64,000 nucleotides of DNA from assembly GCF_030643805.1 (NCBI RefSeq), contig NZ_CP094656.1:1488001-1552000 (forward strand). The letters are read 5' to 3'. The notes beneath the pieces are model-generated. The model worked only from the letters and a program-made list of their open reading frames with translations. It did not search any database and was not told the origin of the DNA. The position numbers were made by a program, and so were the translations under genes. This document shows, one piece after another, positions 8,307-13,187 of this stretch. Every line of letters starts with the position of its first letter. Positions within the stretch are counted from its first letter, which is position 1. Source of the DNA: Alkalihalobacillus sp. AL-G (lineage in GTDB: Bacteria; Bacillota; Bacilli; Bacillales; Fictibacillaceae).

Positions 8307-8381
8307 TGGGCCATAGCCAAGCGGTAAGGCAACGGACTTTGACTCCGTCATGCGTTGGTTCGAATCCAGCTGGCCCAGCCA
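8307..8381 (+). tRNA. tRNA-Gln (anticodon TTG)
   Basis: A 75-base cloverleaf. The acceptor stem TGGGCCA pairs with TGGCCCA, discriminator G and an encoded CCA follow. The D-arm holds AGCCAAGCGGTAAGGC; the anticodon loop CTTTGAC, closed by an ACGGA/TCCGT stem, gives anticodon TTG (reads CAA). The T-arm carries GGTTCGAATCC. It is solitary rather than in an rRNA-linked cluster. Confidence 0.97.
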
Positions 8382-8432: not shown

Positions 8433-8820
8433 GTACGCTAAAAACGTTTAATACGTTCTCTAAGTAAAAGGACAACTACGACTATGAATTGTATAAAGCC
8501 TCCGATGATATCCTAAGATGTATTTATTACAGAATGGTGGACTTTATTGAGATGAATCTTCTTTCAAAATTAATTGAAACCTTTCTCATTCCATTCCGTA
8601 TACATACTATTCGAATAAATGCTATAAGAATGTACGGGGAATTGCTTATATCACTGATTCCTTGAATTGATGCCTAATCTGACTGATCACCCCATAATAT
8701 CCCTTGAAAGGTCTTTAATTTTACCTCTATAAATGTTGAGTTTATAATAAGAAGGGTAGCCATGGTGGAATATGGTATCAAAAAAACCTATTTGAACGAT
8801 TAACGCAGATTTGGAGGAGA
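8433..8820 (+). promoter_or_regulatory. Gene-free stretch before the PspA cluster, candidate promoter
   Basis: About 390 bases with no supportable ORF. A perfect -10 hexamer TATAAT lies at 8743-8748, with a weak -35 (TTTTAC, 8719-8724) 18 bases upstream, leaving a leader of about 65 bases before the DUF4178 gene. No clear ECF-type (AAC...CGT) promoter was seen, so stress induction of the cluster cannot be read from the DNA. Confidence 0.4.
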
Positions 8821-8823
8821 ATG

Positions 8824-9333
8824 ATGAGCTTGTTCTCAAGGATTTTCAAGAAAAAGGAAAAGGAAATAGAAGAAGTTAAGGAAAGAAACTTCTTTAACAT
8901 TCGAATTGATGATATAGTTACCTATGATTTGGAAGATTATCAAGTTTCAGGAAAATTGATTTATAAAGATGGAGGGTACGAATGGTTAGCCTATCAGCTT
9001 GTCGGGGCAACCGAAACGATCTGGCTTAGTGTTGAAATGGATGATGAGCTTGAGCTCGCCATTTATAAATCATCAAAAGAAAAACTGACCCAGCCTATTC
9101 CAAATAAAGTAACAATAAATAAAACGGAATACATCCTTGAAGAAAAAGGTACTGCCACTGTTCAGGGAGAAGGACGCGGAAAAAACGTTCATGGGCAAGA
9201 AGTGAAATATTTTGATTTCGTCAATCAATCCGAAGATCAATTTCTCTCAGTTGAAGTTTGGGGCAGTGAAGTAGAAGTAAGTGAAGGTCACGAAATTGAG
9301 GGTTATGAGATCAAAGTTATTGCTGCAAGCTGA
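8824..9333 (+). CDS. DUF4178 domain protein, first gene of PspA cluster
   Basis: 169 residues. A basic N-terminal helix (SLFSRIFKKKEKEIEEVKER) leads into a beta-rich domain with ITVTYDLEDY-like opening, YEWLAYQLVG, and the LEEKGTATVQGEGRGK hairpin typical of DUF4178. Members are usually encoded beside PspA homologues, DUF350 proteins and spermidine-synthase-like enzymes, as here. No membrane segment; probably cytosolic or membrane-peripheral. GGAGG at 8813-8817 fits the second of two adjacent ATGs better. First gene of a five-gene cluster running to 12873. Confidence 0.82.
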   Translation: MSLFSRIFKKKEKEIEEVKERNFFNIRIDDIVTYDLEDYQVSGKLIYKDGGYEWLAYQLVGATETIWLSVEMDDELELAIYKSSKEKLTQPIPNKVTINKTEYILEEKGTATVQGEGRGKNVHGQEVKYFDFVNQSEDQFLSVEVWGSEVEVSEGHEIEGYEIKVIAAS

Positions 9334-9394
9334 AAACTAATTAAGTGTAGTCATTAAGTCAACTAAAATAAATAAAACCTTTAGGAGGAATGAA

Positions 9395-10066
9395 ATGTTC
9401 AATTTATTTAAAAGAGTCCGTACGATGGTGTCTTCCGAGTTGAATTCAGCCCTTGATAAAGCTGAAGATCCAGTAAAATTACTTGATCAGTATATGCGGG
9501 AAATGGCTGCTGATATCCGGGAAGCAGAAACAGCGGTCGCTAAACAAATTGCAAATGAAAAAATGTTAAAGAAAAAGTACGAAGATGCTCGGAGTCTTGT
9601 TGAAAAAAGAGAAAAGCAGGCTATCCAGGCTCTTGAATCAGGAAATGATGATCTTGCCCGACGAGCACTTGAGGATAAACAAAAGCACAGTCAACAGGCT
9701 GACACATTACTTGGTGCCCATACTCAGGCGAAATCAGATGCGGATTCGCTACGAGAAAGATTAGCTGACATGAAAGAAGAATATGACCAGATGAATCTGA
9801 AAAAAGATTCACTAAAAGCTAGGGCGGAATCTGCCAAAACAAAAACCAAAATAAATCGAACTATGTCGAACATTGGCAGCGACGAATCTCGTCAAGGGTT
9901 TAACCGTATGGAAGAGAAAGTACTACACTATGAAGCGGAAGCAGAAACAAGTGATGACCTTCGCTCTTCAAATAAATCTCTAGATGATGAATTTGAAGCT
10001 ATGAATACTGAAGATAGTGTAAACGATGAGTTAGCGGAGTTGAAGAAAAAATTAGGGAAAGAGTAA
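9395..10066 (+). CDS. pspA: PspA/IM30 family membrane-stress protein
   Basis: 223 residues, typical PspA/Vipp1 length and architecture. A short amphipathic N-terminal helix (MFNLFKRVRTMVSSELN) is followed by a long charged coiled coil, with the family LDKAEDPVKLLDQYMREM segment near residues 20-37. Such proteins assemble into ESCRT-III-like rods or rings on the inner face of the stressed membrane and limit proton leakage. Ribosome site TAGGAGG. Its stop overlaps a strong hairpin (10052-10080) that separates it from the DUF4247 gene. Cluster context with DUF4178, DUF350 and SpeE-like genes is characteristic of one PspA subfamily. Confidence 0.93.
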   Translation: MFNLFKRVRTMVSSELNSALDKAEDPVKLLDQYMREMAADIREAETAVAKQIANEKMLKKKYEDARSLVEKREKQAIQALESGNDDLARRALEDKQKHSQQADTLLGAHTQAKSDADSLRERLADMKEEYDQMNLKKDSLKARAESAKTKTKINRTMSNIGSDESRQGFNRMEEKVLHYEAEAETSDDLRSSNKSLDDEFEAMNTEDSVNDELAELKKKLGKE

Positions 10067-10080
10067 CCTTCTTTCCCTAA
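10052..10080 (+). promoter_or_regulatory. Intra-operon hairpin at pspA 3' end
   Basis: TTAGGGAAAG (10052-10061) pairs perfectly with CTTTCCCTAA (10071-10080) around a 9-base loop. It covers the last pspA codons and stop, and the next ribosome site (AAGGGGGTG) begins two bases after it. There is no T-tract, so it is more likely an mRNA-stabilising or translation-modulating stem than a terminator. Confidence 0.55.
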
Positions 10081-10095
10081 TAAGGGGGTGTGTCA

Positions 10096-10662
10096 ATGAG
10101 AAGGCAATTCATAGGGGTCTCCATCTTGGTAGGTTTATTCCTCGTCCTGGTTGGCTGTGGTTCAACAAGTATCTTAGATATTGTTTCAGATAAGTACCCT
10201 CTAGAGGATGTCGTTGAAAGCAGCACAAATCCAGAAGATACTGCAAGAGTATTTATTGCGAAAGATAAAAGCATATCTAAAGTATCATCTTTTATCCAAG
10301 ACAAGATGGAACCCGGTAATGCCAGTGAAATAAAGGATAATAAACAAGTATTAGTTTACAATGACTATTTTGTTACCTTAACAACAGATGAAAATGACCC
10401 AGATAATACCGTGATAGAAGTTGCTTCAAACGGTTTCGTACGTGATAATTACAGACCTAGCTTTTTTAACGGATTTATAGCGTATTACATACTAGATGAT
10501 ATATTAGACGTGGATGACTGGGGAAAGAGACAAAGTCAGCGTTGTGTCGGAAAATGTTATAGAGGCTATAATCAATCTGGAGGATCATATAAAGGGCCAA
10601 CTACTCCTTCTTCCTTTCGAGGATCAGGAAATCGTGGTGGGGGTCCTGGATCAGGTAAATAA
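10096..10662 (+). CDS. DUF4247 lipoprotein of the PspA cluster
   Basis: 188 residues. The N-terminus is a lipoprotein signal peptide (basic RRQ, hydrophobic core, lipobox LVGC with the lipidated cysteine near residue 22), so the protein is anchored outside the membrane. The body matches the DUF4247 pattern: VSDKYPLEDVV, then VLVYNDYFVTLT and NGFVRDNYRPSFF. The tail is rich in Gly, Ser and Pro (GSGNRGGGPGSGK). Start at 10096 fits AAGGGGGTG; the GTG at 10090 lies within that site. It supplies an extracytoplasmic component to the stress cluster; exact role unknown. Confidence 0.82.
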   Translation: MRRQFIGVSILVGLFLVLVGCGSTSILDIVSDKYPLEDVVESSTNPEDTARVFIAKDKSISKVSSFIQDKMEPGNASEIKDNKQVLVYNDYFVTLTTDENDPDNTVIEVASNGFVRDNYRPSFFNGFIAYYILDDILDVDDWGKRQSQRCVGKCYRGYNQSGGSYKGPTTPSSFRGSGNRGGGPGSGK

Positions 10663-10679
10663 TATTAGGGAGGTATAAA

Positions 10680-11075
10680 ATGAATCCTTACATTTTAACA
10701 TTATTGTATTTTATTGTAGCTGTCGTAATTGTGGTAGTCGGACTTATCATATTTGAACTAATCACGACAAAGTACAAAGATTGGGATGAAATTGAACGAG
10801 GAAATTCTGCTGTTGCCTTATCGATAGGTGGAAAAATAATAGGTATTTGTGTCATCTTAGCGTTCTCTATCTACAATAATGACACTATACTTTCGACGGC
10901 TATTTGGGGCGGTTATGGAGTCGTCCTGCAAATGGTTGCTTATTACTTGTTTGATTTTCTGGCGCGTAAGATTCCGATTGAATCGGAAATGAAAAAAGGG
11001 AACATTGCTGTTGGGATTATCTCCTTATGTGTCTCAATCGGTTTAGCGTTTGTAGTCGGTGCGTCCATCACTTGA
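10680..11075 (+). CDS. DUF350 family membrane protein
   Basis: 131 residues with four predicted transmembrane helices (about 3-26, 46-66, 76-95, 106-128). The cytoplasmic loop TTKYKDWDEIERGNSAVALSIGGKIIG is the DUF350 signature, and the pattern repeats as KKGNIAVGIISLCVSIG in the second half. DUF350 proteins recur beside PspA homologues and polyamine-type enzymes and may be a channel or membrane scaffold. Ribosome site AGGGAGG. It is followed by a terminator. Confidence 0.87.
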   Translation: MNPYILTLLYFIVAVVIVVVGLIIFELITTKYKDWDEIERGNSAVALSIGGKIIGICVILAFSIYNNDTILSTAIWGGYGVVLQMVAYYLFDFLARKIPIESEMKKGNIAVGIISLCVSIGLAFVVGASIT

Positions 11076-11079
11076 TCGT

Positions 11080-11114
11080 TCCCCTCAAAGCCACGGTTTT
11101 GAGGGACTTTTTTC
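11080..11114 (+). terminator. Terminator after DUF350 gene
   Basis: CCCTCAAA (11082-11089) pairs with TTTGAGGG (11098-11105), followed by ACTTTTTTCT. It lies inside the stress cluster, so the SpeE-like gene is read by leakage or from its own promoter. Confidence 0.75.
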
Positions 11115-11125
11115 TCGATGATACC

Positions 11126-11176
11126 AGGACAGCCATGGCTCAGCCTGCACTTTTAGGCTGGGCCTTGCCAAGTTTT
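11126..11176 (+). repeat. Intergenic repeat, family 1, degenerate copy
   Basis: Shares GGCTCAGCCT, the AGGCT-GG core and TTGCCAAGTTTT with the copy at 11249-11307, but lacks the ATAAGTGCAACTA head. Its 3' end pairs weakly as a hairpin. Confidence 0.55.
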
Positions 11177-11248
11177 ATTACACGTTAGAAAATATAACTT
11201 TTCAGCAAGAAGATTTGCCGACGTAGAAGAAAAGTGTATCGTTCCAAG

Positions 11249-11307
11249 TATAAGTGCAACTAAGGCTCAGCCTACGCCAAAGGCTTGGCTTTGCCAAGTT
11301 TTCTTTA
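11249..11307 (+). repeat. Intergenic repeat, family 1, full copy
   Basis: Begins TATAAGTGCAACTA, contains CTCAGCCTACGCC, and ends with a terminator-like hairpin CTTGGC-ttt-GCCAAG plus TTTTCTTT. A third copy lies at 55760-55868. Similar hairpin repeats are widespread in Bacillaceae genomes. This copy sits directly ahead of the SpeE-like gene and extends its open frame spuriously upstream to 11254. Confidence 0.65.
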
Positions 11308-11322
11308 AATGAAGGTGAAAAC

Positions 11323-12873
11323 ATGACTGACAACAATGCAATCAAAAGTAAGAGAATCTACTGGGCATCTGGAATCGTATCAATTTGCGGCATTATATTT
11401 GAAGTGCTGTTTGGTGCTTTAGGTTCATATATACTTGGTGATGGTGTCAAACAATATACATTGACGATTTCGTTATTTCTGACTGGGATGGGAATCGGCT
11501 CTTTTTTAAGTGAACGAGTAATGAAAAAGCTGATTCAAGCTTTTATCATTATTGAATTTGCTGTTGCATTCATTGGCGGTTTTTCTGCGTTTCTATTATT
11601 CGGTGTAACCGCATATTTAGGCAGTGGCTCTGATGCTATCTTTTTATATGCGACGATTCTCGTCATTGGTACACTTACCGGGCTGGAGCTCCCGATCTTG
11701 ATCCGTAAAGCAAATGAAATCGGTGTTCAGATCAATAAAAGTACAGCAAGAGTGCTCTTTTCAGATTATGCGGGAGGTTTAATCGGGGGCTTATTATTTC
11801 TTTTTCTCTTTCGACCCCAGTTTGGGTTGGTGAAAACAGCATTTCTAGTCGCCATCATCAACATAATCGTTGCCTTGTGGGTGTTGTATACATTCAGAAA
11901 AGAAATCGCCCATTTAAAGGCGTATTCGGTTATGGGCGGGTTTATTTTATTCCTGCTTATCGGAGGTGTAATGTTTGGTGAAGAGATGGCTTTTTCTTTT
12001 GAACAAAAGATATATAATGATCCGATCATCTATGTAGAAGATACAAAATATCAACATATAATTTTAACGAAAGAACAAGGGGATTTAAGGTTATATTTAA
12101 ATGGTCAGCTTCAATTTAGCTCATCTGATGAATACCGTTATCACGAAACACTTGTACATATACCGATGTCTTTAGCTGAACCACGAGAAGATATTCTAGT
12201 TTTGGGAGGCGGGGACGGACTTGCATTGAGAGAGCTTGAAAAATATCAAGATACAAAGGAAGTCACCCTTGTCGACCTTGACCCTCGAATGGTTAAGCTT
12301 GCAAAAAACAATCCTCAACTCGCTCAGTTGAATGAAAATTCATTTGAAAATGAAAAAGTTCATGTTGTTCATGAAGATGCATTTGATTACATGGAAAGTG
12401 CAAAAGGATTTTATGACGTTATTCTCGTCGACTTGCCGGACCCGAACAATGAGAGCTTAAACAAACTATATACGTTAGAATTTTACTCGTTGCTTCGAAA
12501 TCACCTAGCTCCTGGTGGAATGATAATGGTACAAGCAACTAGTCCGGTTTTTGCTAGAAAAGTGTACTGGACAATTGATGAAACGATAAGTGGAACAGGC
12601 ATGTATACAGAGAATTTTCATCTTGATATACCGAGTTTTGGTAACTGGGGATTTGTACTGGCAGCTAGAAAACCGATTGATATTAGCGATATTGATATTA
12701 ATGTTGATACGAAATATTTATCTACGGACCTGATTCCGTCGTTAACAAAGTTTGGGAAGGATGAAGATGGTACGATTGCCAATGAGGATGGAGAACAGGT
12801 CGAGCTAAAACCGAATACTTTAATTCGCCCCAATTTAATTGAAAAGTATGAACGAGCATGGCGAAATTATTGA
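11323..12873 (+). CDS. Membrane-anchored spermidine synthase-like protein
   Basis: 516 residues. The first 220 hold about seven transmembrane helices. The rest is a polyamine aminopropyltransferase fold: DEYRYHE (269-275), the decarboxy-SAM motif LVLGGGDG (292-299), LVDLD (316-320), and the catalytic-loop block VDLPDP (369-374). Soluble SpeE has VDSTDP/VDSSDP there. The reaction would be aminopropyl transfer from decarboxy-SAM to a polyamine, or a related transfer at the membrane; no S-adenosylmethionine decarboxylase gene is present here. Start at 11323 fits GAAGGTG; the longer frame runs through a repeat. Last gene of the PspA cluster, although a terminator and two repeats precede it. Confidence 0.85.
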   Translation: MTDNNAIKSKRIYWASGIVSICGIIFEVLFGALGSYILGDGVKQYTLTISLFLTGMGIGSFLSERVMKKLIQAFIIIEFAVAFIGGFSAFLLFGVTAYLGSGSDAIFLYATILVIGTLTGLELPILIRKANEIGVQINKSTARVLFSDYAGGLIGGLLFLFLFRPQFGLVKTAFLVAIINIIVALWVLYTFRKEIAHLKAYSVMGGFILFLLIGGVMFGEEMAFSFEQKIYNDPIIYVEDTKYQHIILTKEQGDLRLYLNGQLQFSSSDEYRYHETLVHIPMSLAEPREDILVLGGGDGLALRELEKYQDTKEVTLVDLDPRMVKLAKNNPQLAQLNENSFENEKVHVVHEDAFDYMESAKGFYDVILVDLPDPNNESLNKLYTLEFYSLLRNHLAPGGMIMVQATSPVFARKVYWTIDETISGTGMYTENFHLDIPSFGNWGFVLAARKPIDISDIDINVDTKYLSTDLIPSLTKFGKDEDGTIANEDGEQVELKPNTLIRPNLIEKYERAWRNY

Positions 12874-12996: not shown

Positions 12997-13022
12997 GGAG
13001 TAAGAATTGTATATATGCGAAT

Positions 13023-13187
13023 GAGGATCGTGGGAGAGGTCGAAGAAAGAATCGACACCGAAGGAGCAAGTTCCAAAAAACCATGGAACAAATCTCTCAG
13101 GTAAAAGAACCGCGATTGGACGCATCTCTGGAGAGCGCGAAAGCCACCAAAGGGGTTATAAACTCTCAGGTAAAAGGACAGAGAAGG
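13023..13187 (+). promoter_or_regulatory. Tandem glycine riboswitch (gcvT type)
   Basis: Two consecutive glycine aptamers. Aptamer 1 opens with ATCGTG...GGGAGAGG (13026-13039), closes with CTCTCAGGTAAAAG and an ATCGTG/CGCGAT P1 helix (13026-13031 with 13111-13116). Aptamer 2 opens with CTCTGGAGAG near 13126-13135, has the GCCACCAAAGGGG block, and closes with CTCTCAGGTAAAAGGAC. The short linker between aptamers is typical. Its location upstream of serine dehydratase fits induction of serine breakdown when glycine is abundant. Confidence 0.93.

Follow-up and report, generated by a model that had tools for sequence, protein, structure and literature searches.

A probable envelope-stress operon of Alkalihalobacillus sp. 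AL-G with a candidate aminopropyltransferase for a lipoprotein C-terminal lysine

What does a membrane-embedded relative of spermidine synthase transfer, and to what, when it is encoded together with PspA, DUF350, DUF4178 and a lipoprotein? The question is raised by a locus of Alkalihalobacillus sp. AL-G that lies in a 64,000-nt stretch of DNA (NZ_CP094656.1, 1,488,001-1,552,000), here called the window, within which all positions are counted. The genome is complete (4.16 Mb) and its near relatives are Pseudalkalibacillus. Five genes stand on the + strand in the order DUF4178 protein, PspA, DUF4247 lipoprotein, DUF350 protein and a seven-helix aminopropyltransferase, hereafter SpeE7. An earlier annotation of this sequence (the original prediction) had named these five families, all of which were matched (PF13785, PF04012, PF14042, PF03994 and PF01564), and had called the transferred group and its target open. 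Our candidate answer is the aminopropyl group of decarboxylated S-adenosylmethionine (AdoMet) and the C-terminal lysine of the lipoprotein. On a modest balance of probability, we favor an envelope-stress operon in which SpeE7 would aminopropylate that lysine with decarboxylated AdoMet as the donor.

A lipoprotein tail that accompanies SpeE7

The DUF4247 lipoprotein encoded beside SpeE7 ends in a near-invariant RGGGPxxGK. The loci taken in were 40 of the 105 places with DUF4178, nine named loci, 11 SpeE7 loci outside Bacilli and G118, a SpeE7 genome without DUF4178 whose locus is near a contig end. A same-strand open reading frame (ORF) ending G[GS]-x(2-5)-GK was present no more than 1.41 kb from SpeE7 in 40/40 Bacillota loci, and none was found in the 22 DUF4178 loci without SpeE7 (0 among 2,559 ORFs). 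Control ORFs with such a tail numbered 1/1,027 around soluble SpeE-like genes and 3/806 around canonical SpeE/SpeD genes, two of the three being second copies of clusters already counted; with the second copies left out (1/1,027 and 1/806), the chance rate is about 1 per 1000 ORFs.

Across the 40 tails, K at position -1 and G at -2 are invariant (40/40 each), three loose positions follow, GGG at -6 to -8 is kept in 38-39 and R at -9 in 37. Conservation is limited to these last nine positions, and the preceding columns drop to 0.09-0.33 identity. A loose pattern detected a lipobox-like motif near the start of 35 tail proteins, and the other five have, by eye, a hydrophobic N-terminus or a single transmembrane (TM) segment.

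Similar ends occur in other phyla. A tblastn search of plasmids gave 19 records, 10 of which were taken up, namely nine full SpeE7 genes and one partial gene (Rhodovulum). Outside Bacillota, nine of the ten full-gene SpeE7 loci encode within the cluster a small membrane-anchored protein that ends in Lys. The ends are GGGPESGK in Ensifer (a protein of 78 amino acids), NRGPSSGK in Alteromonas (a lipoprotein), GPSHK or GPTHK at three Novosphingobium loci, YGSHK at two Burkholderia loci, RHGK in Gemmatirosa and NSNRVK in Tritonibacter, the last being an ORF listed without a filter for Lys or a TM segment. The tail protein of Novosphingobium ES2-1 is an annotated gene. These anchor proteins are quite unlike DUF4247, yet their C-terminal ends are alike; the full Bacillota motif is matched only by Ensifer and Alteromonas.

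Catalytic residues, donor and side of the membrane

An AlphaFold2 model of SpeE7 (11 sequences, pLDDT 77.4, pTM 0.57) bears out the predicted membrane SpeE, with seven long helices (residues 2-38, 41-63, 70-98, 103-132, 137-167, 169-190 and 198-230) followed by an aminopropyltransferase fold. The best Foldseek match is the SpeE structure 7xif_D (E 2.6e-16, TMt 0.78), and the protein scores 583.9 bits against NCBIfam PRK03612 (cut-off 472). Residues were compared between 50 SpeE7 and 25 canonical SpeE proteins and are numbered as in the 516-amino-acid protein. Common to both groups are Q244, D269, Y273, H274, GGGDG, D320, D352, D370, P374, Q404, P437 and W442. The residues for aminopropyl transfer are retained in SpeE7 (GGGDG, D320, D352, D370, D373, Q404). 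With respect to GGGDG and the D-x-x-[DE]-P pattern, G295, G297, D298, G299, D370, D373 and P374 are conserved at 1.00 and G296 at 0.96 among the 50 SpeE7, and the canonical DST[ED]P reads DLPDP, so that the GGGDG motif and DxPDP loop noted earlier are indeed kept.

The N-terminal W-x-T-E segment of canonical SpeE (W and E each in 25/25) is a different matter, as its position is taken by the end of TM7 in SpeE7. Scored over residues 205-230, W-x-[TS]-E, a canonical spermidine synthase feature, occurs in 1/50. The looser W-x(1-3)-[DE] is found at the same stretch in 9/50, Proteobacteria included, so a related pocket may remain.

Away from the cluster, the host genome has a single gene each for SpeD (C1:2957265) and for canonical SpeE (C1:3930308). 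The original statement that no AdoMet decarboxylase is encoded nearby thus holds for the neighborhood and fails for the genome. SpeD is present in 20/20 Bacilli carriers of SpeE7 versus 292/398 genomes overall, and in 8/11 other Bacillota carriers. Novosphingobium and Alteromonas have it inside the cluster as an annotated gene, as do Ensifer (read from sequence) and one further genome (G811), and three genomes (G413, G368, G118) have SpeD and SpeE7 and lack canonical SpeE. The donor of SpeE7 is probably decarboxylated AdoMet. AdoMet itself is less likely because every Bacilli carrier has SpeD. Free spermidine synthesis is also less likely as the main role, given the canonical SpeE elsewhere in the genome; the polyamine link that had been proposed survives as chemistry, while a plain polyamine product is unlikely. 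SpeD homologs can be ornithine or arginine decarboxylases (PMC10407285), so the co-occurrence is no proof of the donor.

DUF2617 was found in 3/33 SpeE7 genomes, which are precisely those that lack SpeD, and is a possible replacement of SpeD. The profile comparison of DUF2617 with SpeD gave a probability of 13.5%, and the plasmids yielded no match to DUF2617. The gene lies within the SpeE7 cluster at L106, L107 and L110 (genomes G467, G695 and G759). Its H-[ST]-Y-P stretch resembles the H-T-W-P of SpeD. Two controls that carry DUF2617, C. glutamicum and H. volcanii, are likewise absent from the SpeD control list.

Three kinds of evidence agree with a catalytic domain of SpeE7 outside the membrane, as we predict. 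First, the mean number of K+R is 2.8/2.1/3.9/3.6 for the N-terminus and the even-numbered loops (2, 4 and 6) and 0.75/0.05/1.8 for loops 1, 3 and 5, alike in Bacillota (n=40) and others (n=10). This pattern would put the N-terminus inside and, with seven helices, the catalytic domain outside. Second, the catalytic domain is depleted of Cys, with 10 in 14,450 residues and none at all in 43/50 proteins, compared with 27 in 7,136 residues of canonical SpeE (12/25 without any) and 32 in 5,002 residues of soluble relatives (1/16 without any); the Cys share of the helix part is normal. Third, a flavin amine oxidase is encoded downstream of SpeE7 in six loci (PF01593 in the two tested), and in five of them its start carries what we take to be an RR motif and a lipobox, none being seen in Novosphingobium THN1.

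Gene order, regulation and features of the window

Full-length SpeE7 occurs in 3/34 genomes of the family and 20/398 of the class, and SpeE7 with helices in 12 genomes (13 matches) among 398 of the phylum. DUF4178 is found in 105/398 class genomes, including 19/20 of those with SpeE7 (the exception being G118). The order DUF4178-PspA-DUF4247-DUF350-SpeE7 recurs in 27/28 Bacilli SpeE7 loci first examined, with varying flanks, and therefore the five-gene set is not a chance assembly; at the remaining locus (L073) PspA is absent from the line. Within 6 kb of SpeE7, the 40 Bacillota loci encode DUF350 in 39, DUF4178 in 38, DUF4247 in 38 and PspA in 37. A second cluster type without SpeE7 is mostly arranged PspA-DUF350-DUF4178-DUF4247. 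The five-gene set is patchy in distribution, which by the criterion of the original prediction (conservation across Bacillaceae) speaks in part against a common system, yet its partners accompany SpeE7 where it is present. SpeE7 was also found at two loci on viral contigs, one of them (L102) with helices.

The cluster appears to be under sigma-W-type envelope-stress control, as supported by promoter-like sites that match what we take to be the sigma-W consensus. TGAAAC-N16-CGTA was found twice in the window (0.14 expected). TGAAAC-N15..17-CGTH stands upstream of the first gene in 22/28 Bacilli SpeE7 clusters, where that gene is DUF4178, in agreement with the membrane stress role that had been predicted, and in 13/18 SpeE7-less clusters and 0/10 non-Bacilli SpeE7 clusters, against a background of 0.015 per 490 bp.

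The features are collected in Table 1. The site, the hairpin and the lipoprotein tail were absent from the original prediction.

Table 1 Features of the SpeE7 cluster in the window
Feature	Position	Strand	Basis
Promoter-like site of sigma-W type (extracytoplasmic function, ECF), TGAAAC-N16-CGTA	8575..8600	+	exact match
DUF4178 protein, beta-rich, probably cytoplasmic	8824..9333	+	PF13785 3.3e-33; model pLDDT 76
PspA/IM30 (ESCRT-III-like) protein	9395..10066	+	PF04012 PspA_IM30 2.1e-49; PDB relatives PspA/Vipp1
DUF4247 lipoprotein, lipobox LVGC, proposed substrate	10096..10662	+	PF14042 5e-15
Codons of C-terminal tail RGGGPGSGK, last Lys the proposed acceptor	10633..10659	+	tail conservation in 40 loci
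DUF350 (YjfL-like) four-helix membrane protein	10680..11075	+	PF03994 1.5e-35
Terminator-like hairpin in the DUF350/SpeE7 gap	11082..11105	+	10-pair stem, 4-base loop, T-rich tail
SpeE7, seven TM helices (residues 2-230) and aminopropyltransferase domain (about 231-470)	11323..12873	+	PF01564 Spermine_synth 7.3e-37; PRK03612

The ATG at 11323 is the likelier start of SpeE7 than the GTG at 11254 because of its ribosome site, in our judgement. A 25-base direct repeat (11155-11179 and 11281-11305, 88% identical) flanks the stretch ahead of SpeE7. The fold of the DUF4178 protein had no match in the PDB at E<=0.001, the top weak matches being lipocalin/FABP-like among others. The L109 protein is a fusion in which DUF4178, on the N-terminal side, is linked through one TM segment to an ectodomain that bears the tail. 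Directly upstream of the cluster is a tRNA gene (8307-8378; anticodon TTG, by eye), and two tandem glycine riboswitch aptamers (13021-13187) precede an L-serine dehydratase beta-chain gene (13368). A second PspA/IM30 homolog is encoded outside the cluster at C1:582987-583613.

Two observations concern the neighbors and relatives of SpeE7. A K+ channel with a TrkA domain is encoded no more than 130 bp from SpeE7 in 7/40 Bacillota loci (L073, L104, L105, L107, L110, L111, L112) and at 562 bp in an eighth (L108). Among non-membrane proteins, the SpeE7 domain has its closest relatives in SpeD-SpeE fusion-like soluble proteins (L119, L120, L121, L123, L125, L138), and no tail protein was found next to those examined.

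Proposed reaction, alternatives and known systems

From the genes, the tail and its link to SpeE7, the catalytic residues and the sigma-W-type sites, we propose the following reaction, side and effect. SpeD, encoded elsewhere, would make decarboxylated AdoMet, from which the membrane-anchored SpeE7 would take the aminopropyl group for transfer to the epsilon-amine of the lipoprotein's last lysine. In chemical terms the side chain of lysine, a butylamine, amounts to one half of putrescine, so the flexible tail, rich in Gly and Ser, would come to end in a group resembling spermidine. The reaction would take place on the outer face, and the charged tail may then act on DUF350 and PspA, or in some Clostridia on the K+ channel, and so protect the membrane. 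A more specific version is offered only tentatively, since it stacks several steps upon one another: a new post-translational modification, in which the C-terminal lysine would be aminopropylated on the outer face with exported decarboxylated AdoMet and perhaps freed again by the exported flavin amine oxidase of Proteobacteria and Gemmatimonadota.

Several points weigh against the proposal. The link between tail and SpeE7 in Bacillota is backed by few independent events, because a tree of the DUF4247 core, in which the SpeE7-less group is nested among those with SpeE7, needs two changes of the SpeE7 label, and even a single change would be conceivable. DUF4247 proteins of SpeE7-less loci (n=19) end in R in 15 and in K in two, mostly as RR/KR, and are fairly conserved too, so a conserved end alone needs no SpeE7. 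No tail protein was found at the viral locus L102, the tenth full gene. The tail ORFs of Burkholderia, Gemmatirosa and N. resinovorum came from a filter that selected for a terminal Lys together with a TM segment and are therefore weaker, and the Tritonibacter end agrees with the Bacillota tail in Lys alone. Three SpeE7 genomes are without SpeD. Decarboxylated AdoMet is made in the cytoplasm, so an active site outside would need a carrier. Lastly, the cytoplasm is where YgiC-type ligases act on lipoproteins of a similar kind, so that modification could precede export and the outside placement would be unnecessary.

The last two points lead to the alternative that stands up best, though we consider it unlikely: SpeE7 would modify the tail in the cytoplasm before export, its helices holding the enzyme at the export site with the catalytic domain inward. 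The donor is available there, and YgiC/YjfC-type ligases are soluble proteins adjoining lipoproteins that end in -GG. The positive-inside pattern, the Cys-poor catalytic domain and the adjacent exported-looking amine oxidase speak for the opposite side. Rather unlikely is a role of SpeE7 in making or modifying a free polyamine or a lipid headgroup at the membrane, with an unmodified tail that docks or senses by binding SpeE7 or DUF350. In favor of it, Ravi 2024 (PMC11237479) proposes that polyamines are monitored or that substrates of another kind are aminopropylated, the tail could be a ligand as well as a substrate, and tails are conserved without SpeE7 too. On the other side, the genome has its canonical SpeE, W-x-[TS]-E is nearly absent from SpeE7, and a substrate is the simplest reading of an amine-bearing end residue that never varies next to an enzyme that alkylates amines. 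Membrane fusions of this kind reportedly do not replace SpeE (Li 2019). It is highly improbable that the tail is a basic end binding teichoic acid or anionic lipid at the surface and kept by descent, with SpeE7 lacking a direct link. The SpeE7-less homologs have basic ends as well, but GGG...GK differs from their RR/KR in kind and beyond charge, and in other phyla the tail turns up on anchor proteins of quite another type.

We return to aminopropylation of the lipoprotein tail. Membrane-fused spermidine-synthase-like proteins were noted before without a known acceptor, and the end motif across phyla names one testable residue. If confirmed, tail aminopropylation would be a new protein modification, a hypusine-like one of lysine on the bacterial surface under envelope-stress control, and would explain in chemical terms why PspA and DUF350 are linked with polyamine enzymes. 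Being tethered and charged, the tail might plug DUF350 or the K+ channel near SpeE7. YgiC-type ligases (-GG) and the transferases (-GK) would then belong together in a single "polyaminated tail" family of stress systems sharing PspA and DUF350.

Hypusination of eIF5A places a polyamine-derived group on a lysine, and an aminopropyl group is placed on a peptide product in microcin C (PMC10491745). Both use other enzymes and donors, and neither targets a surface protein at its C-terminal lysine. No protein-tail aminopropyltransferase was found in the open-licence PubMed Central papers searched, where aminopropyltransferase, lipoprotein and C-terminal lysine together gave 0.

A system attributed to Li 2019 reportedly comprises AdoMet decarboxylase, an MFS-spermidine synthase fusion and DUF350, with an acceptor other than putrescine being proposed and, it is said, not named. 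A membrane-fused spermidine synthase-like enzyme, SpeD and DUF350 would be shared with the system described here. The work is cited in Ravi 2024 (PMC11237479), the excerpted part of which describes an operon of PspA, a 7TM spermine-synthase-like protein, DUF350, DUF4178 and a lipoprotein. The cluster as such is thus not new, with all five kinds of the same gene families together in both. The Ravi operon has a CesT/Tir-like partner and the Ctha_1186 lipoprotein, whereas the lipoprotein here is DUF4247; no CesT/Tir-like family was found by Pfam among the neighbors scanned, of which very divergent forms may exist. The tail, the topology, the sigma-W site and the acceptor were not found in that part of the paper.

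A parallel in arrangement is that of the peptide-spermidine ligases of E. coli (compare Pederick 2023). YgiC and YjfC are annotated in RefSeq as peptide--spermidine ligase, and the adjoining lipoproteins YgiB and YjfM end in -GG. Among nine YgiC-like loci, namely the E. coli pair and seven chosen among 30 listed out of 152 records, six have a neighboring lipoprotein ending in -GG; that of Pseudarthrobacter ends in GSGS, and none was found at the Photobacterium and Azospirillum loci. Like the cluster described here, E. coli yjfIJKLMC combines a polyamine enzyme and a lipoprotein with a Gly-rich tail with PspA and DUF350. The chemistry is different: YgiC and YjfC are ATP-grasp ligases that join spermidine to a carboxylate, with tails ending in -GG, whereas SpeE7 would act as an alkyl transferase on tails ending in -GK.

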